Shown here piece by piece: positions 11,535 to 61,650 of a stretch of DNA of 64,000 nt (position 1 is the first letter of the stretch; every line of letters begins with the position of its first letter). This DNA is from Bryum argenteum (taxonomy: Eukaryota; Streptophyta; Bryopsida; Bryales; Bryaceae). Under the pieces are notes generated by a model. It made no database searches and was not told the origin of the DNA. It saw nothing but the letters and a program-made list of their open reading frames with translations. Both the position numbers and the translations under genes were made by a program. The DNA lies in contig CM073322.1 of assembly GCA_037043015.1 (NCBI GenBank), positions 19,975,601 to 20,039,600 of the forward strand, written 5' to 3'.

Positions 11535-11803
11535 TTAACCCCTAAAGGCCCATGATGTTTTGGGAGCTTGAAATCCCAACACTGACCACTATGTACTAAT
11601 GCGGGTACGTCCAATATTTTTGGAAATTTTTGATAACTTCAACCGTAGGATCTTGAAGTAAACTACCATAGGTAGTAGTGTGAAAATTTTCAACCGTTGG
11701 ATCATCACTGGATGTGAGATCATAACATTTGAAGTTGACTGTAAATTTTTTTTGGCCTTGACCGTAAAAGCCGAATCGGCGGCCGTGGGCCTTTAGGGGT
11801 TAA
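11535..11803. mobile_element. TTAA-flanked MITE (piggyBac-like signature), copy 1, inserted in the LINE
   Basis: The 269-bp element including both TTAA sites begins TTAACCCCTAAAGGCCCA and ends with the exact inverse TGGGCCTTTAGGGGTTAA. Removing the element and one TTAA restores the LINE frame ...EIFNGTSW, so TTAA is the duplicated target. A TTAA target with CCC-starting termini is the known signature of piggyBac-type elements. It has no coding capacity. It is nearly identical to the copy at 19324. Confidence 0.9.
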
Positions 11804-12440: not shown

Positions 12441-15400
12441 AGATGGCATCGGAGAAAATACCTTGTTTCCATGACATCATTTGCCAAGGTCCCGTAGCAG
12501 TCCTACCACTGATCAGAACGTGCATAATATGAACCGCCCACTGCCAAGCACGTCTCGCAGAAACACACTCCTAGAAGCGGTGAAGAATAGATTCTTCTCT
12601 TCCACCAGCACACACAGGGCACGTGATATCAACACTAGCATCGAATCGGCCTCGCCAGTAGTTTACAGCAACTGCCCGATGCCAAATCAACCACAACAGG
12701 CCCGCCTCCTTGCTAGTCCGCTCCTTAGTCCAAACTGTCTTCCACTTCAATCTAAAGTTGTTCGGGGGGATACCCTGCCACTTACGAGTCACAGGATTAT
12801 CCACGACAATGCGCTTCCTTAACAGCTCCCGGCCAATTTTAGCAGAGTATTCCATGAACGGGACTCCCTTCTCCCCAATGTCCCACACAAACTTTCCAGG
12901 GTCCCATTCGAGCTTGTCAATGCGGCCGTAGAACAACTGGACAACCTCCTTCTTCGGACCCCTGGTAACTTTAACGACCCGCACTCTCCGGAATACCCCT
13001 CTCGATAAGCGGGCATCCTCCAGACTCACGCTACCTGGCCACTCCGATGGCCGTAAACACTTCGTTACCGTTTGGACCGTGAAGGTCTGAGTGAACCTGC
13101 TCAGCGGCCACACCCCCTCCGGGCCTTCGATACTCACGCGCGGCCGCATTGGTGCTTGCAAGACGACCTTCGCCTCCAGATCAGAGTCGACTTCAAACCA
13201 CCCAAGCCACTCCCCAGTACTCGCCTCACAAGTTTGCGTATCGATCAACAGGCCCCATTCGTTGAGCAGCGCCCCACAGGCCGCATTCCAGGCACCACTC
13301 TCCGCTTCCAAGAGCCCAAACTTAGCCACAACCTCCTCTGCACAAAGAAGCCGAACACCCTCAACAACATCACGAATTCTCCTAAGCCCGGCCTTATGAA
13401 GTTGAGCAGCCCGGAGTTTGGAGAAACCCGCCCCAATCAAGTGCACTTGTGACGACCACCAAAAGGGCTCACACAATACCTCTTCACGGGTAGTCACCAG
13501 CCGAGAGATGACAGCAGGTCTCAAGCTCTTCCAAGCCTTCTCCGCTCTCGTCCAAGCCACTGAGCCCTGACGCGCCTGAGAGTTTGCCAAAGTAAAATAC
13601 TCCATGCTAGGACTCCATCTCCCACCTTGATAAGGTTGAAAAGCGGTCAAACGGAACTTGATCAAAGTCTGTAGGTTCGAAGTCCCTGGTTCGCAAGCCT
13701 TCAGCACCCATTTGCACATCAACGCAATCAAAGCATCCTTCGGGTTTATGACGTTGATACCCCCTTCAGCCTTCGGCAGGCAGCACTGCGCCCAAGACAC
13801 TTTGGTCCGCGCTCTGTGCATAGAACCGGACCACATGTAATTCTGGATAGCAGAAGTAACTTTCTTAACGCCCTTCTCAGTGCCACCCCAAATAGAGACA
13901 AAGAACAACACCGACGACAAAAGAACACTGTTCACAATTACACCACGTCCGGTCGCATTAACTTTGGCGGTGCACCAATATTATAACTTCTTAGTAACCC
14001 GATTGGCAAGGAAGGTGTCCACCTCCTCCGAGGCCAGCGACAGCCCGAAAGGCGTCCCTAGCAACTTCCCAACTTCCGCATCGTCCACCCAAGTAACATT
14101 AAGCTGCTCCGTCCACGGTGGCCTACCTCCACCTCCTACGTGTTTCCAGTACCCACATGACTTAGTCCTATTGAGGATCAACCCAGACCCTAAACAAAAC
14201 CTGTCTAACACCTGAAACAGCTCTTTGGCCGGCTCTTCTTCTTCCAGCAGGGTCAGCGAAGTGTCGTCCGCAAACTGCGCGATGGTCTGCTGCCCTCCCT
14301 GTGCCGGCAGCTCAATGCCTTTAACTACCCCATGCAGCCATACCACGCTTGACCATGGCATTGAGAACCTCCGCTACAATTAGGAAAAGGTAGGGCGCCA
14401 AGGGGCAACCTTGTCTAACCCCACGTTGTATAGAAAACTCTTCAGATTGTGACCCATTTACTTTCACAGAAGCAGTGGCGTCACAAAACAACAACCGAGT
14501 CATTCCTACAAATTCTTCCGGGAACCCAAGCGTCCTCATAGCACTAAATAAGAAAGGCCATTCAACCAAGTCGTAAGCTTTGGCAAAGTCCAACTTCAAG
14601 AAAATGAGAGGTTGACAGGAATACTTCGCCCAAGCCATGGTTTCGTGGGTGAGGAGGATGTTGTCGAGGATGAACCGCAACGGGAGGAATGCCGACTGGT
14701 CGAGGTTGATGACCTCCATTAAAACCGGTTGGACACGGATTTGGAGAACTTTGGCAAACAACTTGTACACTACATTAAGCAGTGTAATGGGTCGCCAATT
14801 GGTGAGGCGAAACCTGGTGTCTCCCTTGTGGAGCAACGAGATGAGCCCCTTCGTGACTCCCAGGGGAAAATGGCCATCAGAGATCGCTAAGTTGACCATG
14901 TGGAGGTAGTCAACCTTAATGACCTCCCAGAAGGCCTGGAAAAATTCGGTAATCACCCCGTCAGGCCCGGGGGCCTTCCCTCGAGCCATGTCTGCTAGCG
15001 CTCTCGTGAGCTCCTCCATCGACATTGGAGACTTCAGCTTCGACTTCATCTCCGAGGTCAGCCGGTCTGAGATTGCCGACAGTCCATCCTCCGCGGCTCC
15101 AGTACGCGCCACCATTTCGGGAGGGGCCGTATAGAGCTTCGAGTAAAAGGCTGTACACACCTCCTCCAAACTACGTTGGTCAGTGCGAAGAACGCCTTGC
15201 TCGTCCTCTAAGGCCGTGATACACGAGGCGCCGGAATGAGCCTTAGAGGCACGAAAAAACTCCTGCGTACAGGAATCGCCCACCCTTTTCCACTTAACCC
15301 GACTCCTAATCTTTTGCCCTTCTACCTTCCGCGTCTCAGCTAATTTAAGGCGCTCACCCGCCTCACCTAGTGTTCTCTGTAGCTCCTCATTGTCCGGGTC

Positions 15401-15537
15401 ATTGTGAAGCTCGATGGTGGACAACGCCACGCTACGCCTCAGCCGTGCCTCCTCCGCTCGAAAAACTGTTGCCTTCTTCACACAATACTCACGGTAGTAC
15501 TTCACCGCTTTCCGCAGCTTCCATACGGGAGAAACTT

Positions 15538-18345: not shown

Positions 18346-18357
18346 TATTCAGTGCTC

Positions 18358-18476
18358 GTGATGCGGTCATACCAAGGCTACTACACCAGATCCCATCAGA
18401 ACTCTGAAGTTAAGCGCCTTTGGGCCGGAATAGTACTGGGATGGGTGACCTCCCGGGAAGTCCCGGTGCTGCATCC
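18358..18476 (+). rRNA. 5S rRNA sequence forming the head of a SINE (probably a retrotransposed copy)
   Basis: This 119-base sequence matches plant 5S rRNA end to end. It has TCATACCAAGGCTAC, then GATCCCATCAGAACTC, then the internal pol III promoter with box A (GAAGTTAAGCGCC), the intermediate element and box C (GGATGGGTGACCTCC), and the 3' end CGGTGCTGCATCC. The 5' end has one extra base (GTGATGCGG rather than GGATGCGG). No T-run terminator follows, and it is fused to a tRNA-like sequence, so I interpret it as part of a mobile element rather than a functional rDNA gene. Confidence 0.85.
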
Positions 18477-18846
18477 ATTTAGAAAAGGCACCACAAGCCT
18501 AAGCTTGGTGGTTAGGGTTTAGGCCCCCAATGAGGAGGTCATGGATTCTATTCCCCATGCTGGCGTGGTGCTCACCACTATAGTCCACCCAACTATTGTG
18601 GGGGGTCTTTGGACCTTGTTGTATGGGTACCTCAAAGCCCTTTGGGGGGATACTATGTCAAGTATCTTCAAGGCACTAGTAACTAGGCTAGAAACTAGCG
18701 TAGTTACAGTGTCCACCCTCGAGAGGGGGAAGTAGTATTGTTCCGATTTCCCCTTGTCCGGTGGCCATTGGGATATTAGCATTACGAACGGACACTTCAT
18801 TCACGCTGGCTCCTTAGAAAGGGACCGGAGTTTCTATCTATCTATC
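18358..18846 (+). mobile_element. composite SINE: 5S rRNA head, tRNA-like segment, (TCTA)n tail
   Basis: The element is flanked by the 12-bp direct repeat TATTCAGTGCTC at 18346–18357 and 18847–18858. Its 5' boundary coincides with the first base of a full-length 5S rRNA (18358–18476). It continues with a tRNA-like part carrying an A-box-like AGCTTGGTGGTTAGGG (18502–18517) and a B-box-like GGATTCTATTCC (18543–18554). About 280 bp of body follows and ends in a (TCTA)n tail. This is the layout of 5S-derived SINEs (SINE3 type, known from animals). The last ~50 bp resemble sequence at 61570–61615, so the tail belongs to a dispersed family. Confidence 0.85.
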
Positions 18847-18858
18847 TATTCAGTGCTC

Positions 18859-19323
18859 TTTCTAGGCGTATGAGCGTTAAAAAAAAGTGGAGCCTACCCA
18901 TTCGTTCATCATGCTGACACGTTTCCCACATGATAATTGTAACTGCTCCTTGTAATCCCGCCGCATGTGTTCCTGAATGTATCCAACCTTCGGAGGTGTT
19001 CCCCTTGATTGGTCGCATGGTCATCGCAACAAGCCAATTTTGAGCCGGCCTGGGAGCTGAATAGCGTTACGGTTGGACTACCTAAAAGCGCCAGGGGGCC
19101 TATTTGCGCACTGTACCATATCTGTAGATTGTGAAAATACAGATGTACCTCATTTGTATATAACGCAATTGGGTCAAATCTTACTTAGCACTTTGGAATT
19201 TTGTATAAAATTCACTAACGCGAATTACATGTTGCAAATTTTTGCAATCCTCCCGAAAAACTATTTCGAATGTGGTCATAATTTTATTTTGAATTTACTA
19301 GTGCTAAAAATAGGTCAGATCTC
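18859..19323. other. unassigned between two mobile elements
   Basis: The sequence between the SINE and the second TTAA MITE holds no supported gene. The frame at 19073–19327 (+) has no recognisable features and runs into the MITE. Confidence 0.35.
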
Positions 19324-19592
19324 TTAACCCCTAAAGGCCCATGATGTTTTGGGAGCTTGAAATCCCAACACTGACCACTATGTACTAATGCGGGTACGTC
19401 CAATATTTTTGGAAATTTTTGATAACTTCAACCGTAGGATCTTGAAGTAGACTACCATAGGTAGTAGTGTGAAAATTTTCAACCGTTGGATCATCACTGG
19501 ATGTGAGATCATAACATTTGAAGTTGACTGTAAATTTTTTTTGGCCTTGACCGTAAAAGCCGAATCGGCGGCCGTGGGCCTTTAGGGGTTAA
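19324..19592. mobile_element. TTAA-flanked MITE, copy 2
   Basis: It has the same 269-bp length and termini as the copy at 11535, from TTAACCCCTAAAGGCCCA to TGGGCCTTTAGGGGTTAA. By eye the two differ at one base (GAAGTAAAC there, GAAGTAGAC here). Near-identity implies recent movement or recent conversion. Confidence 0.9.
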
Positions 19593-28560: not shown

Positions 28561-28878
28561 GATGTCAAAATTGGATTCTTGAGTGACTTGTCACTCTTGT
28601 AGTGTAAAGTGGATTTGGACCGGGTCTACTTTAAGTTCAATCTTCAAATATAAATCTATAAATCCTCATCATTGTCTCTCTTACCCACCTTTTTATCCTC
28701 CTTTCTCCTTAAATAATTGAACACTAGCCAATCATTCAATGATTTCTGAACCTCATGGTCTCCTTGTTTGTAATTGAATCGAGGTATTTGCTTTGACTCA
28801 ACTATAATCAAGAAGACCATGGAAATATTATCTACTATGGAGAATTTAGCATAGTTAGTGGTCATTCTCCTTTTTTCA
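28561..28878. other. unassigned left flank of the F-box array
   Basis: No gene or defined element is recognised between the hairpin-element fragment and the first array unit. Confidence 0.35.
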
Positions 28879-29048
28879 AGGTAGTGTGAAAGCAAATGGG
28901 ACCAAAAGCACTTTCCTCTCCAATCACAAATTTTAGAAGACCATGGTCAATCTTCATCGTCCATAGTGTAAAACGGCCCTAACTCTAGAAGATTATAGAA
29001 ACCTGTCGCCCTTGTGAAGTTTATGACTCTACGAAATAGATGTAAATC

Positions 29049-29272
29049 AATGATCGGGAAAAACCGACGGCTAGTGTATTATCAGCCGATGGATTTAGCT
29101 CATTGGCCGGTCCATTTTTGAAACCACCGGCTAAAAACCGATGAAAATTAGAAATAAATTTCTATTCTCAGTATAAAATGAGAAAATTGCCGGAAGAAAT
29201 CTCTGAAAAACCGATTAGGTGTGGGAAATGCCGGTTATTAGCCAGTAAAAGCCAAAAAATTCCCCAAACCCT
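29049..29272. mobile_element. 224-bp MULE-like MITE in unit 1
   Basis: The element is flanked by the 10-bp direct repeat GATGTAAATC at 29039–29048 and 29273–29282. Unit 2 has the uninterrupted site (GATGTAAATC then ATGAAAGCGGAAG near 33182), which proves an insertion. The ends are loosely inverted (GGGAAAAACCGACGGCT left; inverse of the right end reads GGGTTTGGGGAATTTTTTGG). A 9–10-bp duplication and G-rich ends point to a Mutator-type non-autonomous element. Confidence 0.75.
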
Positions 29273-30010
29273 GATGTAAATCGTGAAAGAGGAAGCCTAG
29301 AAGAATCGCACGACCAGGCTGAGAGACTGGTCTGTCGGTCACCTCAGAAGGTTTCGAGATCCTCGGTGAAACGAAATTGCTACAGAAAGTCAGGGTTACT
29401 AAGTACAAACTTAGAAGATCTGCGGGGAACATACCGTTGGCAACACCAACAAACAAACTGAATTCTCCTATAAGTGAAGGATTCTGCTTCAACCATGTTA
29501 CCTCCTTAGGGTTCCTATTGAGATTGAGATCCATTTTAAAGTTGTGGCCCATTTGTTATTTATACTAACTTTTGGATAAGCGATCCCAACTACGTGAAAA
29601 AATGGTTGCCTCCTATGTTGTCGACTCTTAAACATGTACTGTACATGCCACAGAGCTCATGTACCTAAGTCAAAGCAAACGCACTATGAAGCCATATTCT
29701 CACCTAACCACTGGCAAGTTGTCAAAATCCAAATACTTCCTTCTCTCTTTCTGTCCAGAGACAAAACGGGATAAAAATATCATGTATTCAAAGGTAGAGC
29801 TCAATTTAGGGACGCACTAGATTCTGTCAACATGTAGAATCAACAGCTCAACTGAAATTTCTGTCCGGAGACAAAACGGGATAAAATATCATGTATTCAA
29901 AGATAGAGCTCAATCTAGGAACGCACGAGATTCTGTCAACATGTAGGATCAGTTACATCTCAACTGAAATGTCGATCTAACGAATGTAGCCATTGCACAC
30001 TGAAACTACA

Positions 30011-30229
30011 CTACTCAAGACTTGCATGAATGGTCATAGCAACCAGAGGAGCCGATAAGCCAGCTCCAATGTCGAAGTGGGCAGGTGCGGCACCGACACC
30101 CATATTCCCGTTGATGGGAGCATGGGCGACTGCCAAGACATTAGCTCCGACTGCTGCATTCGCCTGCGCCTGTCCAATTACATGCGCGCCTGGGTGGGCT
30201 GCACCCTGTGCTGCGTTTGCTTGATCCAT
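30011..30229 (-). CDS. small Ala/Gly-rich protein frame, repeated in array unit 3
   Basis: The frame starts MDQANAAQGAAHPGAHVIG and is rich in Ala, Val and Gly, ending SAPLVAMTIHASLE; 72 residues from the Met at 30229. A splice acceptor-like TTCAG just upstream suggests it may instead be the last exon of a longer gene reading leftward from about 30600. A rearranged version with an internal duplication and stop lies at 38045–38265, and unit 2 has lost it. I recognise no family. Only partial conservation between units supports it. Confidence 0.35.
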   Translation of the reverse strand: MDQANAAQGAAHPGAHVIGQAQANAAVGANVLAVAHAPINGNMGVGAAPAHFDIGAGLSAPLVAMTIHASLE

Positions 30230-30599
30230 CGTCACCGGCTGCTGAACTTGCTCAAAAAAACATACACAGATCGGCAAACACGATCAACGGCACAGAATGC
30301 ATGAGGACACATTGAAACTGGTTGCTTAATTTCATTACATAAAAGGGACTTTTGAAATCAGCGACAACCTACTGGACACTCAGCATCTAGATCACGAGTC
30401 GAATCGGAGAGTGTATTGTATCTGAACTGAGCAGGTGGGTGAACCGACAATGGGACGTACGTAACTGAATATGTAAGCATGACTGTAAGTGAATGGACTG
30501 CATAAGGCCGTCGAGCAATTGCTAGAGAAGAGATTGCAATGAAACGATGCAAGAAAGCTTAGATTTGCAAGTAGGTGGAGAAGTAACTCACCCCGTTGC

Positions 30600-31130
30600 A
30601 AAAGCACAACCATTCACTTACTGGAGAATCTAATTTTTAGTGGGCAGGCTTGGTGCTACAAACGATATGCTCACTAGATCTCCAGCGCTCGTAACCCTAG
30701 GGATTCATCCTCCAGGCTCTAGGAACCTTTTAAGGTGGGTTCTAAGAGCCGTCTCAGTCTGATCGTGCGATCCTTCGTGGTTTGCTCTTCCACAATTACA
30801 TCTAATCAATCGAGTCAGAAATTCCTTGAAGACAGGATTCTGAAATTCTCTACGGTGGACTATCCTCGCAGCCCAAGGGGAAAACTCGCAGCACACCTCG
30901 TTCCAGATTGCACAATATGTGACGGAAAATCTCTGGCTCGGCGATCCGATCAACCGCAGGTGAGTTCTGCATTCCCTACGCGATCTCTGCAAAATCGCAC
31001 ACTATCCGCCTAGGCACCAGGAGAGCCTCCTTTTATAAGTAGACCATAATTGAAAACACCTTCTCAACATAGCCTTTCTACATCCTTGGAGCAAGGAGTG
31101 CAGCAGCTCGAACTCTGTTTGCACGGTACT
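30600..31130. repeat. inverted 5' module within unit 1
   Basis: This segment is the reverse complement of the corresponding part of unit 2 (35050–35140 and 36060–36535) and of the inverted copy (52060–52490). It carries the frames read in sense elsewhere (IGSPSQRFS ... HLKRFLEPGG) but backwards. The junctions read CTCACC|CCGTTGCAAAAG on the left and GTTTGCACGG|TACTCCC on the right, where the other copies have CTCACCGTGCAAAC and GCAACGGTACTCCC. This is a simple inversion at short matching sequences. Confidence 0.8.
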
Positions 31131-31458
31131 CCCTTAGGATTTGAATTGAGAGTGAGATTCATTCCAAAATGTGACCCATGTGTTTCTTTTTCATTGTTAA
31201 TTACGTATGAATTGAATATGATGACATCGTTGAGCTTAAAGACATCTCATTCGGAGATCTTCATTCCTACTCGAAGACGCTTTGTTTCATGGCGGATGCA
31301 TTGCATGATGCATGAGTTCGTTCTTGGATCGAAGTCCTGATTGTTGCAACCAGGAGACTGTCTTCGATAGATTGTTCAGAGTCTGACGGATGATGAGAAC
31401 GAACCATTCGGAGCCTTACCGACAATCACATTTTCCCTTGGTCCATCAAGATTCCACT

Positions 31459-33002
31459 GATGGTGAATGTGATTCCGTTTTTGAGTCAGGTGAAAAAAAT
31501 GGGTCCTGGCTCTGCGGACGTCCTGTGCTCGGAGCCTAGTTCTCAAATGTCCTCGAATTGTGCGCATGCACGTCAGCTAAAATGTGTGGTTAACTCAGTC
31601 TCGGAATATCTGCCGGATTTATTAATCAAAATGAAATACTATATCTACTCTAGGATGAAAGATATGTCGCATCCGCCAAGTCCGTCTGTAAAGTTTCTCG
31701 GCATGCTGGGAAAGAAGTGCGTTCGCTGCGGTTAGTTGTACTGGAAGTGTATCATGCCAGGGCTAGAGCACTCGATCTGCAGTCGGATTTCTCGGATGAA
31801 CTAGTAGTTTCCAATGGAGGGCAATCAAGTTCTTCACAGGAGAATCATGGTGAGAGGTTGAAGCTCAGCGGTACAAGGACCAACTGGTTCACATCTTGCT
31901 TCGGTACCAGTCTCTTGTGCAGCTTTGCATTGAGGTAGAAGCGTTGCTCCAGGCAAAAACAGTGTCAGATGACGAGAAACGGAAAACTGACTTCTGGATA
32001 AGCGATCCCAAGTACGTGAAACAATGGTTGCCTCCTATGTCGTCGACTCTTGAACATATCTGCATATTGGATTATGGTCAGCAGGCCATATTGCGAAAAT
32101 CGAGCATCACGAGAGTTCCATCGCAGCACTGAAAGAAAGTCTTTATCTTTTTTAAGTGTCAGTTGTGAAGCATTGGTTGAAATCAGACTCCATGTCTTGT
32201 TCTGAATCCGCCTAACCAATGCTACTACAGGTGAACTACTGGAGACTCTGGATGTGCGTGACATGTTCATCGATACGTCCAATTGCGAGAGAATACCCTC
32301 CTTGAGAAGTCTTACCTGGCGTTGTGTCAAGAGAACCTCAGATCTGCGTGACATGTTCATCGATACGTCGCATTGCGAGAGAATACCCTCTTTGAGAAGT
32401 CTTACCTGGCGTTGTGTTGAAGTCACTGCTGAAGCTTTGGATCGGATAACATAAATGAGCTCATGACTACACTACCATACTCTGGCGCTTCTTGGGGTGT
32501 TTGGTGCGGAACGTGGAAGTTTGACATTCCCAGATATGAAGGTACTGTGCTTAGGCCTATCCACCGTAGCGAAGGAAGTTGTGATGGACCTCCCGAAGCT
32601 GGAGAAGCTGCAGCTAGAAATGCAGTGTCCTGAGAAATTGACAATCACTGCTGTCACGTTGAAGTACATTGCGATCAATTTGGATGTTTCTGAGGCATTT
32701 TAACCGCAATTAAGGTGCGGGGGTGGAGTACAAGAGTTATTATGTTCGAGCTTCACGACATTGCCAAATATTATTGAGACGAATACAGGTTTGAAGAAAA
32801 TATTTTTAAATATACCGTGCATGGCCCTCGCGGAGGATGGTAGATTTTTGGGGTCTTGAAGGACGTTCCCTTGGTGCTGCCCAACTTCACGAAATTATAA
32901 GATTGTGTACAGTTTGAGGTTCTGAACGTCGGTCCAGGATTATGGTATTGTATGGAAACGAATGTGGAAGTGCTGACTTTGAAAGATAAGTGGCCTGGTA
33001 TG
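31459..33002 (+). pseudogene. F-box/LRR pseudogene, unit 1
   Basis: It is homologous over its length to the intact gene at 50058–51738. The first exon part (31459–32130) has frame breaks in the F-box region (CTCTAGGATGAAAGAT replaces the intact sequence). The second exon part starts near 32232. It contains a ~90-bp direct duplication of an LRR segment (GTGACATGTTCATCGATACG at 32268 and 32348), a short insertion in GCTTTGGATCGGATAACATA that shifts the frame at 32440, and a TAA at 32701. Several more stops follow. It cannot make a full protein. Confidence 0.85.
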
Positions 33003-33590
33003 AGGGTAGTGTGATTTTGAGGGTAGTGTGAAGCCAAATGGGTCTAAAAGCACTTTACTCTCCAATCACAAATTCCAGAAGGCCATGGTCAATCTTCATG
33101 GTCCACAGCGTAAAACGGCCCTAACTTTACAAGATCATAGAAACCTGTCGCCCTTTTGAAGTTTCTGATTCAACAGAATAGATGTAAATCATGAAAGCGG
33201 AAGCCAAGAAGAATCGCACAACCAGACTGAGACTGGTGCCACTTGAGATCTCAGGTTTCTAGTGCCTAGAGGATGAAATTCTTTAGCTCATCGAGATCCT
33301 CGGCTGGAAACGAAATTGCTACAGAAAGTCAGGATTACAAAGTACAGACTTAGAAGATTTGCAGGGAACATACCGTTGGCAGCACCAACAAACAAACTGA
33401 ATTCTCCTGTGAGGAAGTGAACGATTCTGCTTCAACCATGGTACCTCCTGAGGGTTCCTATTGAGATTGAGATTCATTTCAAAGTTGTGACCCATTTGTT
33501 AATTATACTGACTTTTGGAAACCGATCCCAGCTAAGTAAAAAAATAGTTGCCTCCTATCTTGTGGACTCTTGAACATATACTGTACAGTA

Positions 33591-34542
33591 CCCACCAACA
33601 AGTTTACGTTCAAAATTGAAACAAGAGAACATGTTGTAATCTTTGAACAATTGCTATGTCCACAAAATTAGTCCAAATTGCCAACTACAAATTGTATTGG
33701 AAAGATCATGTAGTATTTTATACCATCATTTGAAGACATTTCAATAAACATCAGAATTTCTATTTTAATATATGACTTTTTAATATATTATTCACTATTT
33801 ACCCTTAGCTCTTATCACGAGTTACTTTTGTTGAGGCTTGAGACAATGAAAAACTTCAACAATTTTTTATGGAAGCTACTTCGATACATATCTATATATG
33901 CAATAGCTTTTTAGAAAGAACTTGAATTGTAGCCCCCAAGAAGCTCAACATTGGACTTTTGTACTCTTAGTAAATGCAGCAATAAACAAGGGCAACTTCA
34001 AATGATCATATCTAGCACCTAGAATAACCAAATTCCATGAAATTACCACCAAAGTGCTCAAAATGTAGCAAATGTTATTGAAACTATCTCTTCTGTGCTA
34101 ATCCAAGCCCATGTGTAAGAAAAGTTTATGAGCATTTATTGCACTTCAAAATGTGTAAGTTGCTTTTTCAATAAGAGACAACATGAAGGTTTCTTGCACC
34201 AACCCAACTCTATTTGTAAATGTGAGCCACATATATGTAAAGGGCATCAAAAGAGGTTTCTTAATAGATATTATTACTCTCTTCCTTAACAAACCTCATC
34301 ATGTAATGGTCTTTATAATAGTCGAAGGTAGAAACTGAAAAATAAGTTCAAACATACCAAAGTTATAAAATAAATTAATACAAATTTTGGAGGTTTTTCA
34401 TGTATATTGGTAAAGAAAAATGCACTACCTTTCTTTCATACTTCATAATTTGCAATTTCGATAGATTTCGCAAACATAGTAATCATATGAAAGTTGCACG
34501 TATGTTATCTCTTCTTGCTCTGAACGTAAACTTGTTGGTGGG
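33591..34542. mobile_element. 952-bp non-autonomous DNA transposon in unit 2
   Basis: Terminal inverted repeats of 22 bp are perfect: CCCACCAACAAGTTTACGTT + CA at the left, its inverse at 34521–34542. The 9-bp TACTGTACA is present at 33579–33587 and at 34543–34551, with three extra bases (GTA) between the left copy and the left end. Units 1 and 3 have the empty site (ACTGTACATGCCACAGAGC and ACTGTACATACCACAGAGC). An 8–9-bp duplication suggests a hAT- or MULE-type element. The interior is A/T-rich without a gene; the open frame at 34400–34624 is not supported. Confidence 0.85.
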
Positions 34543-36786
34543 TACTGTACATGCCACAGAGCTCATGTACCTAATTCAAAGCAAACACACTATGAAGCCA
34601 TATTCTCACCTAAGCACTGGCTAGTCGTCAAAACCCAAATACTTCCTTCTCTCTTTCTGTCCAGAGACAAAACGGGATAAAAATATCATGTATTCAAAGA
34701 TGGAGCTCAATTTAGGGACGCACTAAATTCTGTCAACATGTAGAATTAACATCTCAACTGGAATACAGTATGTTAATCTAACGAATGTAGCCCTTGCACA
34801 CTGATACTACGCTACTCAAGAGATGCAGGAATGGACATCTCTAGATCGTCACGAGTTGAATCGGAGAGTGTATTGTATTTGAACTGAGCAGGTGGGAGAA
34901 CCGACAATGGGACGTACGTAACTAAGTCTCGATCATGTAAGCATGACTGTAAGTAAAATGGAGTGCATGAGGCAGTCGAGCAATTGATAGAGAAGAGATT
35001 GCAATGAATCGATGCAAGAAAGCTTAGATTTGCAAGTAGGTGGAGAAGTAACTCACCGTGCAAACAGAGTTCGAGCTGCTGTACTCCTTGCTCCGAAGTG
35101 AAAAGGCTATGTTGAAGAGGTGTTTTCAATTACGGTCTACTTATACTTGAGGCTATGTTGAAGAGTACCATGGCGAATATATCACGCCATCAGTCTTGGA
35201 TTATAAAAATGGCATGTGGAGTAATCCGATGACTTTATGTGAAGAATAATTTCCACTACATGATTATTCCGATGGATCGCATCCTGAATGTAAGCAGAAT
35301 TCATGAACTTTATTCCTCTTCTTGCTTTTTTTAGAAACCTTCTAATTTTTGCAAGTGTACAGACAAATTCCCGTACCTTAGTCAAACAATAACACCAAGG
35401 CTAAGGACTGCACGGCCACGATCTTCATCGATTGTGACGACGACAGATCTCACCTAAACTTGAGAGGTTTTTTCACTTCGTCGGTACGGTTAATAATTGA
35501 TTTTACAACGAGTTGACAGCCAGACACAAAATGACTTCGTCAAAATTCACACGAGAGTTGGTTCGCATTTGAGTAGATCAATCGACAGAGTTCCGAAGTC
35601 GACAATTGACAGCAACACCCCGTTCCCGTGATCGATACGAAAACATCCCAGTTGCACGAGGTCCAATACCACTGAGCCCGCCTTTTCTGCAGCTGTAGCC
35701 GTTCGTGTGCTCAATAGATCCTAGAACCTGGAGGATGAATTCCTAGGGTTCCGAACGCTGGAGATCTGGTGAGCATATCGTTGGTAGCACCAAGCCTGCC
35801 CACTAACAAACTAGATTCTCCAGTAAGTGAATGGTTCTGCTCTTGCAACGATACTTCCTTAGGGTTTTAATTGAGAGTGAGATTCTTTCCAAAATGTGAC
35901 CCATGGAGACTGTCTTCGATAGGCAAGGGATAGCTTACATGGCCGGGTTATGGGCCGGGTTACAGGGATAGTGTGTGGGCTGGCTTTTACCGCGTCCAGT
36001 ATCTCACACTCCAAACAATACAGTGTCTCCTCCAAACAGGGCTCCACTCTCCAGCCCATACCGCGTACACTGTGAATAACTTAAATGCAAGGAGGCTCTC
36101 CTGGTGCTTACGCGGATAGTGTGCGATTTTGTAGAGAACGCGTAGGGAATGCAGAACTCACCTGCGGTTGTTCGGATCGCCGAGCCAGAGATTTTCCGTC
36201 ACATATTGTGCAATCTGGAACGAGGTGTGCTGCGAGTTTTCCCCGTGGGCGGCGATGATAGTCCACCGTAGAGAATTTCAGAATCCTGTCTTCAAGGAAT
36301 TTTTGACTCGATTGATTAGATGTAATTGTGGAAGAGCAAACCACGAAGGATCGCACGATCAGACTGAGACGGCTCTTAGAACCCACCTTAAAAGGTTCCT
36401 AGAGCCCGGAGGAGGGATCCCTAGGGTTACGAGCGCTGGAGATCTTGTGAGCATATCGTTTGTAGCACCAAGCCTGCCCACTAACAAACTAGTGAGTGAA
36501 GTGAATGGTTCTGCTCTTGCAACGGTACTCCCTTAGGGTTTTAATTGAGAGTGAGATTCATTCCAAAATGTGACCCATGTGTTTCTTTTTCATTGTTAAT
36601 TACATATGAATTGAATATGATGACATCGTTGAGCTTAGAGACATCTCATTCGGAGATCTTCATTCCTACTCGAAGACGCTTTGTTTCATGGCGGATGCAT
36701 TGCATGATGCATGAGTTCGTTCTTGGATCGAAGTCCTGATTGTTGCAACCAGGAGACTGTCTTCGATAGATTGTTCGAAGTTTGAT

Positions 36787-37552
36787 GGATGATGAGAACG
36801 AACCATTCGGAGCCTACCGACAATCACATTTTCCCTTGGTCCATCAAGATTCCACTGATGGTGAATGTGATTCCTTTTTTGCGTCAGGTGAAAAAGATGA
36901 GCCCTGGCTCTGTGGACATCCTGTGTCCGGAGCCTATTTCTCAAAAGTCGTCGAATTGTGCGCATGCACATCAGCTAAAAGTGTGGTTAACTCAGTCTCG
37001 GAATATCTGCCGGATTTATTAATCAATGAAAATACTAATTGTACTCGAGGATGCAAGATATGTCGCATCCGCCAAGTCCGTCTGTAGTGTTTTTCGGCAT
37101 GCTGGAAAGAAGTGCGTTCGCTGCGGTTGGTTGTACTGCAAGTATATCATGCCAGGGCTGGAGCACTTGATCTGCAGTCGGATTTCTCGGGCAAGTTAGC
37201 AGTATCCAATGGAGGGCAAACATCTTCTTCACAGGAGAATCATGGTGAGAGGTTGAAGCTCAGCGGTACAAGGAACAACTGGTTTACATCTTGCTTCAGT
37301 ACCAGTTTCTTGTGCAGCTTCGCATTGAGGTAGAGGCGTTTCTCCAGGTAAAAACAGTGCCTGATGTCGAGAAACGGAAAACTGACTTCTGGATAAGCGA
37401 TCCCAATTACGTGAAACAATGGTTGCCTCCTATGGCGTCGACTCTTGAACATACAGTATCTGCATAGTGGATTATGGTCAGCAGGCCATCTTGCGAAAAT
37501 CGAGCATCATGAGTTCTATCTCAGCACTGTAAGAGAGCTTATTTTGCATATG
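36787..37552 (+). pseudogene. F-box/LRR pseudogene, unit 2 (second exon deleted)
   Basis: It matches the first exon of the intact gene, including SVSEYLPDLLI in place of the F-box start, with frameshifts (for example AGGATGCAAGATATGTCGC). It ends at the donor (CAGCACTGTAAGAGA) and jumps to GCTTATTTTGCATATGATTC, which in the intact gene lies near the end of the second exon. Almost the whole LRR exon is therefore deleted, possibly through the short match GAGCTTATTTTGC. Confidence 0.85.
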
Positions 37553-38847
37553 ATTCAGAAGGTAGTGTGAAGCCAGATGGGACTAAGAGCACTTTGGTCT
37601 CATTTTAGAAGGCCATGGTCAATCTTCATGGTCTCATTTTACAAGGCCATGGTCAATCTTCATGTTCCAGTGTAAAGCGGCCCTAACTTTACAAGATTAT
37701 AGATACCTGTCGAAGTTTCTGACTCTAAGGAATAGATGTGAATCGTGTTGTTGACTTTTGAACATATACTGTACTGTACATACCACAGAGCTTATGTACC
37801 TAATTCAAAGCAAACGCACTATGAAGCCATATTCCCACATAGCCACTGGCAAGTCGTCAAAACCCAAATACTTCCTTCTCTCTTTCTGTCCAGAGACAAA
37901 ACGGGATAAAAATATCATGTATTCAAAGATAGAGCTCAATTTAGGGACGCACTAAATTCTGTAACATGTAGAATCAACATCTCAACTGAAATACAGTATG
38001 TTAATCTAACGGATGTAGCCATTGCACACTGATATCACACACTGATACTACGCTACTCAAGAGATGCAGGAATGGTCATAGCAACCAGAGGAGCCAACAA
38101 GCCAGCTCCAATGTTGAAGTTGGCAGGTGCGTCACCGGCACCCATATTCGCGTTGATGGGAGCATGGGCGACTGCCAAGACATTAGCTCCGAGAGGAGCC
38201 AACAAGCCAGCTCAAATGTTGAAGTTGGCAGGTGCTGCGTTTGCTTGATCCATCGTCACCGGCTGCTAAACTTTCTCTAACAAACACACACGGATCGGCA
38301 AACACGATCAACTGCACAGAATGCATGAGGACACACTGAAACTGGTTGCATGAGAGAAACTTCTGAAATCAGCGACAACCTACTGGACACTCATGATCAG
38401 CATACTATCTGGATCGTCACGAGTCGAATTGGAGAGTGTATTGTATCTGAACTAAGCAGGTGGAAGAACCAACGATGGGATGTACGTAACTAAGTCTCGA
38501 TCATGTAAGCATGACTGTTAGTGAAATGGACTGCATGAGACAGTCGAGCAATTGCTAGAGGAGAGATTGCAATGAAAAGATGCAAGAAAGCTCAGATTTG
38601 CAAGTAGATGGATATTAAGTAACTCACCGAGTTCGAGCGGCTGCACTCCTTGCTTCAAGGATGTGGAAAGGCAATGTTGACAAGATGCACAAGTCCCACT
38701 GAGCTTTCAATTATGGTTACAGAGCAAGTAGGACCCAAATATTTATACCTCCGCGGTGAGGTTTTTTAGATCGACCACACCCGGACTGCTACTAAAACAA
38801 CAATCGTAGGCGAGTCTGTACAAAACTTACTCACATTGTGGTACTAA

Positions 38848-38999
38848 GGCTTCCTCATGGATGAAGTTGGAATTACGTACAGTGGGTGTACGTAGGGTAA
38901 GTAGGGCTCCCTCATGGATGAAGATGGAATTCCTCACAGTGGGGTACGGCTCCCTCATGGATGAAGTTGGAATTCGTCACAGTGGGTTAAGGCTCCCTT
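38848..38999. repeat. three-copy tandem repeat (CTCATGGATGAAGWTGGAAT)
   Basis: Units of about 50–60 bp each begin GGCTTCCTCATGGATGAAG or GGCTCCCTCATGGATGAAG and contain TCACAGTGGG. The same phrase appears once near 53768 (CCCCCTTATGGATGAAG), upstream of the inverted copy. Confidence 0.8.
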
Positions 39000-39006
39000 A
39001 TGGATT

Positions 39007-39175
39007 GGTGCTGAAGGACGTTCCATTGGTGCTGCCTAACTTCACGAAAGTACATGATTGTGCACAGTTGGAGGTTCTGAACGTCGGTCCAGGATTATAG
39101 TATTGTATGCAAATGAATGTGAAAGTGCTGAGTTTGGAAGACAGGTGGCCTGGTATGAGCGAGCTTATTTTGCAT
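39007..39175 (+). pseudogene. F-box/LRR 3' fragment, unit 3
   Basis: It matches the part of the intact gene encoding LKDVPLVLPNFTKLYDCAQL through NVGPGLWYCMETNVEVLSL to SELIL. A TAG interrupts at GGATTATAG. Nothing of the 5' part is left. Confidence 0.85.
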
Positions 39176-39177
39176 AA

Positions 39178-50057: not shown

Positions 50058-51738
50058 CTAAAAACTAAAGCAGGAAAAGTCGAGGTTCATAGTCCAAGTC
50101 TTAATAGTAAGCTTGATCCCCTCCTCACAATCTGCAATTATATTTAGAATAGCCGGTTCAAGCCGGTCACGTTGCACTGGACTGGAAGTGTGCACGTAGA
50201 CGACCAGTATCTTCACAGAAGATCGCAGCAACAGCCCCAAAAGTCTAATGACAGGGTCCAAATTCATCGGAATCATATGCAAAATAAGCTCGCTCATACC
50301 AGGCCACTTCTCATTCAAACTCAGCACTTCCACATTCGTTTCCATACAATACCATAATCCTGGACCGACGTTCAGAACCTCCAACTGTGCACAATCATAT
50401 AACTTCGTGAAGTTAGGCAGCACCAATGGAACGTCCTTCAAGACCCCTAAAAACCTGCCATCCTCCGCGAGAGCCATGCACGGTATATCCAGAAATATTT
50501 TCTTCAAACCTGTATTCGTCTCAATAATATTTGGCAATGTCATGAAGCTCGAACATAATAACTCTTGTACTCCACCTGCGCAACTTAATTGCGGTTGAAA
50601 TGCCTCAGAAACATCCAAATTGATCGCAATGTACTTCAACGTGACAGCAGTGATTGTCAATTTCTCAGGACACTGCATTTTTAGCTGCAGCTTCTCCAGC
50701 TTCGGGAGGTCCATCACAACTTCCTTCGCTACGGTGGATAGGCCTAAGCACAGTACCTTCATATCTGGGAATGTCAACCTTCCACGTTCCGCACCAAACA
50801 CCCCAAGAAGCGCCAGAGTTTGTAGTTTAGGCATGAGCTCATTTATGTTATCCAAAGCTTCAGCAGTGACTTTGACGCAACGCCAGGTAAGACTTCTCAT
50901 GGAGGGCATTTTCTCGCAATTGGACGTATCGATGAACATGTTACGCAGGTCCAAGGTTTTTAGTCGTTTACCTGTAGTAGCATTGGTTAGGCGGATTCAG
51001 AACAAGACATGTAGTCTGATTTCAACCAATGCTTTACAACTGACACTTGAAAAAGATAAAGACTTACTTACAGTGCTGCGATAGAACTCTCATAATGCTC
51101 GATTTTCGCAAGATGGCCTGCTGACCATAATCCACTATGCAGATATGTTCAAGAGTCGACGACATGGGAGGCAACCATTGTTTCACGTAGTTGGGGTCGC
51201 TTATCCAGAAGTCAGTTTTCCGTTTCTCGTCATCGGGCACTGTTTTTGCCTGGAGCAACGCTTCTACCTCAATGCGAAGCTGCACAAGAAACTGGTACTG
51301 AAGCAAGATGTGAACCAGTTGGTCCTTGTACTTGAGCTTCAACCTCTCACCATGATTCTCCTGTGAAGAACTTGATTGCCCTCCATTGGATACTGCTAAC
51401 TTGCCCGAGAAATCCGACTGCAGATCAAGTGCTCTAGCCCTGGCATGATACACTTCCAGTACAACCAACCGCAGCGAACGCACTTGTTTCCCAGCATGCC
51501 GAAAAACTTTACAGACGGACTTGGCGGATGCGATGTATCGTGCATCCTCGAGTAGATTTAGTATTTCATTGCTTAATACTTCAGGCAGATATTCCCAGCC
51601 TGAGCTAACCACACTTTTTAGCTGATGTGTATGCGCATAATTTGAGGACTTTTGAGAACTAGGCTCCGGACACAGGTTGTCCACAGAGCCAGGACTCATC
51701 TTTTTCACCTGACGCAAAAACGGAATCACATTCACCAT
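50058..51738 (-). CDS. intact F-box/LRR protein
   Basis: Two exons, 51738–51072 and 50971–50058, join across a 100-bp GT–AG intron (GTAAGTAAG ... CTACTACAG) to give 526 residues without a stop. Residues ~45–85 (YLPEVLSNEILNLLEDARYI, then ASAKSVCKVFRHAGKQ) look like an F-box, which would bind a SKP1-like adaptor of an SCF ubiquitin ligase. The second exon holds leucine-rich repeats (LKTLDLRNMFIDTS, MRSLTWRCVKVTAEAL, LPKLEKLQLKM, AQLEVLNVGPGL, GMSELILHMIPM) for target recognition. It is the only unbroken member of the local family; the three plus-strand relatives at 31459, 36787 and 39007 are pseudogenes. The start is the first Met in frame after a stop; an upstream ATG seen in unit 2 (36788) is out of frame here. 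Targets unknown. Confidence 0.75.
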
Positions 51739-52056
51739 CAGTGGATTCTTGATGGACCAAGGGAAAATGTGATTGTCGGTAAGGCTCCGAACGGTTCGTT
51801 CTCATCATCCATCAAACTCTGAACAATCTATCGAAGGCAGTCTCCTAGTTTTAACGACCAGGACTTCGATCCAAGAACAAACTCATGCATCCTGCAATGC
51901 ATCCGCCATTGAAACAAAGCATCTTCGAGTAGGAATAAAGATCTCCGAATGTTTCTAAGCTCAACGATTTAATCATATTCAATTCAGATAGTAATCACAA
52001 TGAGAATGAAAAACATGAGGCACATTTTGGAATATATCTCTCTCTCAATTTAAACC

Positions 52057-52490
52057 CTAAGGGAGCACCGGTGCAAGAGCAGAACCATTCACTTCACTCA
52101 CTAGATTGTTAGTGGGCAGGCTTGTTGCTACAAACGATATGCTCACCAGATCACCAGCGCTCGTAACCCTAGGGATCCCTCCTCCGGGCTCTAGGAACCT
52201 TTTAAGGTGGGTTCTAAGAGCCGTCTCAGTCTGATCGTGCGATCCTTCGTGGATTGCTCTTCCACGATTACATCTAATCAATTGAGTCAGAAATTCCTTG
52301 ACATGATTCCGAAATTCCCTATGGTGGACTATCATCGCCGCCCACGGGGAAAACTCGCAGCACACCTCGTTGCAGATTACACAATATGACCGAAATCTCT
52401 GGCTCGGCGATCCGATCAACCGCATTCTCTACGCGTTCTCTACAAAATCGCACACTATCCGCGTAGGCACCAGGAGAGCCTCCTTGCATT
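52057..52490 (-). other. 5' module of the intact F-box locus (leader or upstream exon)
   Basis: The same ~400-bp module occurs in unit 2 (36090–36535), inverted in unit 1 and split at 27541. In two copies it contains a similar frame (IGSPSQRF, NEVCCEFSPWAAMIVH, HLKRFLEPGG). That could be a conserved upstream exon or simply shared leader DNA. No domain is recognised and splicing to the F-box exon is not shown. Confidence 0.4.
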
Positions 52491-52707
52491 CATACAGTGC
52501 ACGCGGTATGGGCCGGAGAGTGGAGCCTTGTTTGGAGGAGACACTGTATTATTTGGAGTGTGAGATACTGGGCGCGGTAAAAGCACGCCCAGCCCACACA
52601 CTAATCCTGTAACCCGGCCCTTAACCCGGCCCTGTAATTTATTCCTTGCCTTCATTCACATTTTAGAAAATTATTTCTATTATAATCTGATTGTCAGTAA
52701 ATGATCG

Positions 52708-61559: not shown

Positions 61560-61650
61560 CAAGATAAGTCGAACGAACACTCCATTCACGCCGGCCTCTA
61601 AATAGGTTGGAGTTTCTCTTTCTTTCTTCCTTTCTTTATCTCTTTTTGGT
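61560..61650 (+). mobile_element. SINE tail related to the 5S composite SINE
   Basis: CGAACGAACACTCCATTCAC, then GCCGGCC and GGAGTTTCTC.., matches the 3' end of the 18358 element (CGAACGGACACTTCATTCAC, GCTGGCT, GGAGTTTCT), again followed by a pyrimidine simple repeat (TTTCTTTC...). I could not recognise a 5S or tRNA head here, so this is a truncated copy or another family with the same tail. Confidence 0.6.

Follow-up and report, generated by a model that had tools for sequence, protein, structure and literature searches.

Sense 5S rRNA joined to SINEs at dozens of loci in the Bryum argenteum genome: probable repeated template switching

A full-length 5S rRNA sequence joined to a tRNA-like SINE in Bryum argenteum raises the question of whether this plant genome harbors a fixed family of 5S-headed SINEs or whether 5S rRNA was joined to retroelements many times over. 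One source, in its accessible part, traces plant SINEs to tRNAs (PMC9033089). The locus lies in a stretch of 64,000 nucleotides (the window; contig CM073322.1, positions 19,975,601 to 20,039,600), in which we delimited the following features. F1, like F2 to F6, is our own working label for a SINE subfamily.

18346..18357, no strand: 5' target-site duplication TATTCAGTGCTC, with an identical 12-mer at 18847-18858
18358..18477, + strand: full-length 5S rRNA head, from Rfam RF00001 and the head consensus
18478..18486, + strand: linker TTTAGAAAA, the 9-nt T/A joint between 5S and SINE, read from the sequence
18487..18562, + strand: tRNA-like head of SINE F1, placed by the starts of headless copies; the end at 18562 is approximate
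18501..18511, + strand: A-box-like motif AAGCTTGGTGG (TGGCTTGGTGG in the F1 reference), from a motif scan of the F1 reference
18544..18554, + strand: B-box-like motif GATTCTATTCC (GGTTCTATTCC in the F1 reference), from the same scan
18563..18741, + strand: F1 body, without a long listed reading frame, from alignment to headless copies
18742..18833, + strand: F1 3' domain, from alignment to headless copies; it recurs joined to 5S elsewhere
18806..18828, + strand: 3' stem-loop, its shape kept across related SINE subfamilies, from covariation in eight sequences
18834..18846, + strand: (TCTA)n tail, read from the sequence
18847..18858, no strand: 3' target-site duplication TATTCAGTGCTC, a perfect 12-bp match to the 5' copy

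The only Rfam match at the gathering threshold in the whole window was to 5S_rRNA, at 18359-18477 in the sense orientation (model positions 1-120, 109.1 bits, E 4.5e-23). This score, together with TATTCAGTGCTC on both sides, bears out the sequence-only reading of a full 5S abutting a 12-bp target duplication, and the (TCTA)n tail that it described is present as well. The same reading had named a tRNA-like segment with A- and B-box-like motifs. The box scan of the F1 reference gave 10/11 matching positions in each box, and a hand count of the window copy gave 9/11 in each, so the motifs stand; ARAGORN found no tRNA within the window and Rfam none in the window element or in four headless copies, so that "tRNA-like" refers here to the box motifs. 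Of the proposal of a retrotransposed element with two promoters, the single unit with its 5S and tRNA-like heads is upheld, and the internal tRNA-like promoter is a candidate marked by the box motifs.

The sequence-only reading had also stated that the unit lacks LTRs, and none borders it directly. This bears on the idea that the locus is an LTR element of the Cassandra kind, which likewise carries 5S in a plant retroelement according to the accessible part of PMC10853983. A 100% identical 269-base direct repeat (11535-11803 and 19324-19592, 7.8 kb apart) flanks the region on either side of a LINE and the SINE and would suit such an element, but among 20 of the 30 direct repeat families no repeat of at least 60 bases directly borders the unit. 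Of the upstream 446 bases, the full match was the window alone and the last 176 bases matched only themselves (30/30 candidates); in the downstream 462 bases, the first 197 matched only themselves among the best 40 of 496 candidates. With no LTRs directly around the unit, we rejected a Cassandra-like element, to which we give next to no credence.

Genome-wide searches were run on an assembly of 258.8 Mb in 25 contigs. Among the best 40 of 2955 candidates for the window element, 8 carried 5S and 32 started near the tRNA-like head, one of the latter retaining a 3' piece of 5S. The element is thus not unique, as had been anticipated, and the 5S matches are dispersed. A 37-nt F1 start pattern (up to 3 mismatches) matched 1332 places and its control none, and the many dispersed copies have common ends: of 32 fetched headless copies, 30 had a target duplication and 30 began with GGCACC after 0 to 3 extra bases. 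From the 1332 starts and the duplications in headless copies, F1 is therefore an ordinary, abundant SINE without 5S; clear junctions of 5S to the F1 start, counted with an exact pattern, numbered 13 against those 1332 starts. That most F1 copies lack 5S is what one would expect if an F1 SINE merely sat beside a 5S pseudogene, but a single target duplication encloses both parts and the identical 5S-SINE order recurs at many loci. We discarded chance adjacency for these two reasons and consider it hardly credible.

How many 5S heads does the genome hold, and to what are they joined? A 28-base pattern from the 5S start gave 68 dispersed matches (two loci contributing two each) and none in its control. 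A genome search with the Rfam 5S model, which is independent of the window, gave 46 matches, all dispersed, among the best 47 of 8049 candidates scored, and 43 of these places were already known. The top score of 109.1 bits was common to the window and five other loci; the best Rfam matches were the heads themselves, and no host 5S array appeared among those best 47. Most heads were found with the window head or its start as the query, which favors intact, window-like heads, and since the 5S start led to most loci, shortened heads are under-counted. The search for SINE bodies covered the + strand, and the fusions reported are those with sense 5S.

We assigned 59 5S-bearing loci to partner classes by eye. 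F1 was the partner in 37, with 20 joined at its 5' end (including L115, whose F1 part begins at position 3) and 17 internally; related SINE subfamilies accounted for 9 (5 F2, 3 F3 and 1 F4), LINE-like elements for 2 and a further repeat for 3, and 8 had no recognized partner. Five weak or unclear loci (L113, L116, L118, L119 and L120) were left out, L120 being a diverged 5S-F1 copy at 83%. Within the further-repeat group, L064 and L080 were 72% identical over 347 columns, and L135 matched L080 over 35 bases only. A flanking repeat scoring at least 10 was present in 23/43 5S-headed loci versus 39/1806 mismatched locus pairings, and none was found in 15/43. The flanking repeats thus lie far above the mismatched-pair control, in keeping with the variable target duplications that the sequence-only reading had predicted for other copies.

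The heads themselves are uniform. Across 43 dispersed heads the consensus matches the window head exactly and is the same whatever the partner, and 5S nt 1 is reached in 39/43 aligned heads, many beside a target duplication. Six heads are identical across four kinds of partner: the F1 start (L004, L005 and the window), truncated F1 (L023), F4 (L022), and a LINE-like 3' end with poly(A) and a target duplication (L021/L062). Exceptions are L048, which starts near 5S nt 75, and L026 and L008, in which 5S is rearranged.

The junctions, by contrast with the constant joint expected of a composite SINE family, vary. The 5S/F1-start pattern gave 19 matches, divided by eye into 13 clear junctions and 6 that were judged chance and left uncounted; the 13 carry 10 different linkers, the F1-start linker often being 9 nt. 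Joins differ in linker, partner and internal SINE position, with F1 junction points that include 1, 43, 124, 251-263, 271 and 295. The expectation that copies share the 5S junction at one base, and with it a composite family with a constant junction, is not supported, given these 10 linkers in 13 junctions and the F1 copies that mostly lack 5S. In L023, L031 and L037 the F1 3' domain is joined almost directly to 5S. Several junctions (L023, L031, L032, L036 and L037) fall at F1 251-263, just upstream of the 3' domain, a stretch that is possibly a template-switch hot spot.

In 36 trailers, a set that omits L034 and five full-length heads in which the T run is missing (L004, L008, L041, L114 and L136), 3 to 5 pyrimidines, nearly always T, are followed by 0 to 7 A; the usual head end is therefore the mature 5S 3' end plus T3-5 plus 0-7 A. 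Four or five pyrimidines open 27/36 trailers, and 26 of these are T runs of that length. A second class ends within 5S, at nt 54-59, in 12/59 classified loci (a list compiled by eye). At L040, L108, L134 and L008 5S occurs twice, whole or partial, before the SINE. Fusions also reach beyond 5S, because at L124 (C4:6798790-6799050) U6 nt 46-101, at 100%, is joined to an F2 SINE at 88%; this is 1 of 11 U6 loci read, picked among the dispersed or weaker of 25 found.

The anatomy of these units, their recurrence, their varied partners and breakpoints and the serial fusions are plain in the loci themselves. Since linkers, partners and internal SINE positions all vary, we favor, at odds of roughly three to one (about 0.76), switching of a LINE enzyme from its template onto 5S RNA, many times over, rather than a fixed plant SINE3 family. 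F1 would be a tRNA-headed SINE mobilized by a LINE reverse transcriptase. While copying SINE (or LINE) RNA at the target, the enzyme would leave its template at the 5' end or internally and continue on a nearby 5S rRNA, copying to the 5S 5' end. Its point of entry would be the 3' terminus of an extended 5S (T3-5 and then A) or of a fragment ending at nt 54-59, and the product, of which the window element would be an example, would insert as a single unit flanked by a target duplication. The loci display the features of such switching: sense 5S at the 5' end, the whole unit inside a target duplication, donor breakpoints that vary, and several donors. We infer that the source RNA was the host's real 5S, and the A stretch after it is presumably a tail. 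A tailed 5S acceptor is plausible because, in the accessible part of PMC11115967, yeast 5S is made with a ten-nucleotide 3' extension and yeast without Rrp6 accumulates polyadenylated 5S. Some points could count against template switching: with no host 5S array among the best 47 Rfam candidates, an element resembling 5S could have supplied the head; the frequent 9-nt F1-start linker could reflect descent from one chimera; and headless copies could be born from headed ones through the internal tRNA-like promoter. The loci that lack a flanking repeat or a recognized partner, L048, and the use of window-derived queries weigh on the same side.

The 5S-SINE RNA might instead have been made beforehand, by RNA ligation or by readthrough, and then retrotransposed normally; ligation is offered as an alternative for U6/L1 in the accessible part of PMC13174262. 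Cleavage could have produced the 12 fragments that stop at nt 54-59 and left them fit for ligation, but most of the full-length heads finish with T and A, the serial fusions would require several ligations, and readthrough predicts one junction where many are observed. The substrate of plant tRNA ligase must bear a cyclic phosphate, which is absent from a U-tailed 5S 3' end. We therefore regard a template jump as the inferred step and a pre-made RNA as improbable, at somewhat under one chance in ten.

Could a single 5S-F1 chimera have gained the 5S promoter and spread, headless copies arising by internal tRNA-like initiation? In a tree of 45 F1 bodies, 14 of them headed, the head label needed 10 changes; shuffled labels needed 11.6 on average and 97/500 shuffles were as low as 10, which is no difference from shuffled labels in a tree with 1/36 inner branches well supported and a headless sample, the best matches to the window, that is biased toward it. 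The body of headed L002 is identical to that of headless L043 over 351 columns. Headed L003, L007, L008 and L040 cluster and carry the markers 117A/122C, which have 217 exact genome matches, far above the number of headed copies; these headed members therefore lie within a much larger subfamily. In this weakly resolved tree the headed F1 bodies form no clade.

Some observations nevertheless suit common descent from one chimera. The linker TTTAGAAAA occurs in the window and L026 only (2/19 junction matches), as does the body mutation C32T (2/48 rows), and L026 lies on another chromosome with its own target duplication, TACATTTTTCAC. The 9-nt linkers recur at the F1 start even in diverged copies such as L009, L089 and L141 have in common a 5S nt-59/AGGCACC joint, and both the window linker and the window element are without TTTT. 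Set against these are the 10 distinct linkers in 13 clear junctions, the other partners and internal breakpoints, the spread of headed bodies over weakly resolved subfamilies, and the T runs of length four or five in 26/36 trailers, at which pol III should terminate. A true composite family is accordingly unlikely, by our estimate a little less so than a pre-made RNA, and we rejected a SINE3 family with a constant junction as the main reading because of its varied linkers and partners and non-clade bodies. On a smaller scale, the window/L026 chimera, two copies in all, may have re-propagated; the window copy may have been formed directly by a switch or may descend, together with L026, from one earlier chimera.

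Pol III stops at runs of at least four T. Most heads should thus block its entry into the SINE, because their trailers carry T4-5 runs. The window linker TTTAGAAAA has three T only, and TTTT is absent throughout 18358-18845, so a junction of the window type should let pol III through. We tentatively entertain, as a possibility well short of even odds, that a plant 5S-tRNA SINE is just emerging, with promoter capture in progress, and that the window element is one of its young copies. Template switching would keep adding 5S heads, most of which would contain a TTTT terminator and be lost; rare joints with three T or fewer would allow pol III transcription to run from the 5S promoter across the SINE, leading to propagation. 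In the window element a new SINE promoter is possibly taking shape; if so, the birth of a SINE by promoter capture would have been caught under way, as the window/L026 pair suggests. The presence or absence of a terminator at the junction offers a testable rule for which chimeras become SINEs.

AmnSINE1 is a 5S-tRNA chimera in structure. Chimeras of this general kind are known in mammals, insects and fungi, and we found no plant report; no plant 5S-SINE or 5S-LINE chimera appeared in the titles and abstract openings surveyed, which covered few subscription papers. The comparisons that follow draw on the accessible parts of the sources. Mammalian LINE-1 chimeras with U6, 5S and U3 likewise carry the small RNA at the 5' end of the insertion, often with target duplications, and are recurrent and independent (PMC13174262). 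Their partner is LINE-1, whereas here it is mostly SINEs, and as a rule the mammalian 5S/L1 chimeras are antisense and truncated, whereas ours, sought as sense fusions, are mostly full length (PMC13174262). The fungal MINE and the tripartite WEIRD-MGL and WEIRD-MgSINE likewise place non-coding RNA on a LINE or SINE, with a double switch with target duplications among them; the RNA that serves as their acceptor is another one, whereas our loci have 5S in that role, with a T/A trailer plus a second class of fragments (PMC2104539). In insects, HaSE3 also has 5S on a tRNA-SINE body, with template switching invoked, and has only body and tail in common with the tRNA SINE HaSE1; here, unlike in HaSE3, most start junctions retain the tRNA-like head and the fusions vary (PMC3272025). 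Vertebrate AmnSINE1/SINE3 elements are likewise 5S-headed but are established families with one head, a status that our loci do not demonstrate (PMC3747384). Cassandra differs in being an LTR element (PMC10853983).

What we describe is thus a known event, template switching, in a setting for which we found no report, with dozens of cases in one genome. The gain of small-RNA promoters by SINEs is usually inferred from old families; this one genome displays the raw material, with dozens of 5S fusions of varied divergence, partners and junctions alongside the headless parent. It also holds a natural record of template switches with readable RNA 3' ends, either T3-5 plus A or the nt 54-59 fragment.

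Eight tails from F1 to F5 (three of them F2; the F1 reference was typed by hand and the rest read from loci) have in common a 3' stem-loop between ATTCACGCC and GGAGTT or GGTGTT. In it, 86% of cells pair, one pair failing in 5/8 sequences, and 5/8 pairs are changed on both sides, a figure that 25/500 shuffles reach. The covariation score was reached by 5/500 shuffles, and sliding the partners destroys the signal. This conserved shape suggests recognition by a LINE enzyme. A LINE sharing the F1 3' end was sought and not found, with relatives of the L024 partner read only in part. The window also holds, at 61569-61640, the end of F5, a related subfamily that has this 3' stem-loop as well and whose tail is C/T-rich, and, at 12571-15505 on the minus strand, a broken LINE matching reverse transcriptase (PF00078) and, just below the cut-off, zf-RVT; the 900 bases read at this LINE contained no F1-type tail.

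Two fusions involve LINE-like elements. At L021, the partner of 5S is a 3' end that carries 15 A, and the target duplication matches. We take this partner to be LINE-like from its motifs beside the poly(A) and target duplication; the 9-kb stretch holding it has no F1 3'-domain motifs. At L024, the element joined to 5S has an open frame of 935 residues and belongs to a family for which no fewer than 150 places were scored; we call it LINE-like from an RNase H in a relative's continuation. Pfam gave no family for the L021 partner stretch (146 aa) or the L063 frame (935 aa). L063 (C8:4368900-4374500) and L146 (C10:7248300-7250800) belong to a large family with open frames of up to 2941 aa. The L063 frame stays open through part of the 5S head and contains CGDIESNPGP, presumably a 2A-like motif, and the continuation of a relative in this family holds RNase H and an unexpected PCIF1_WW-type domain.

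The distribution of F1 is uneven. The largest contig, C1 (44 Mb), is F1-poor, with 5 exact starts versus 73 on C2 (34.6 Mb) among those listed, and it holds 1 of the 68 matches to the 5S start; C1 might be a sex chromosome. Elsewhere in the window, 19068-19320, just before the second 269-base copy, is a repeat with hundreds of candidates (496). A gene-like unit is present in direct and inverted copies at 28873-39176 and 50276-52591, and the frame 50058-50954 matches an F-box-associated LRR family.
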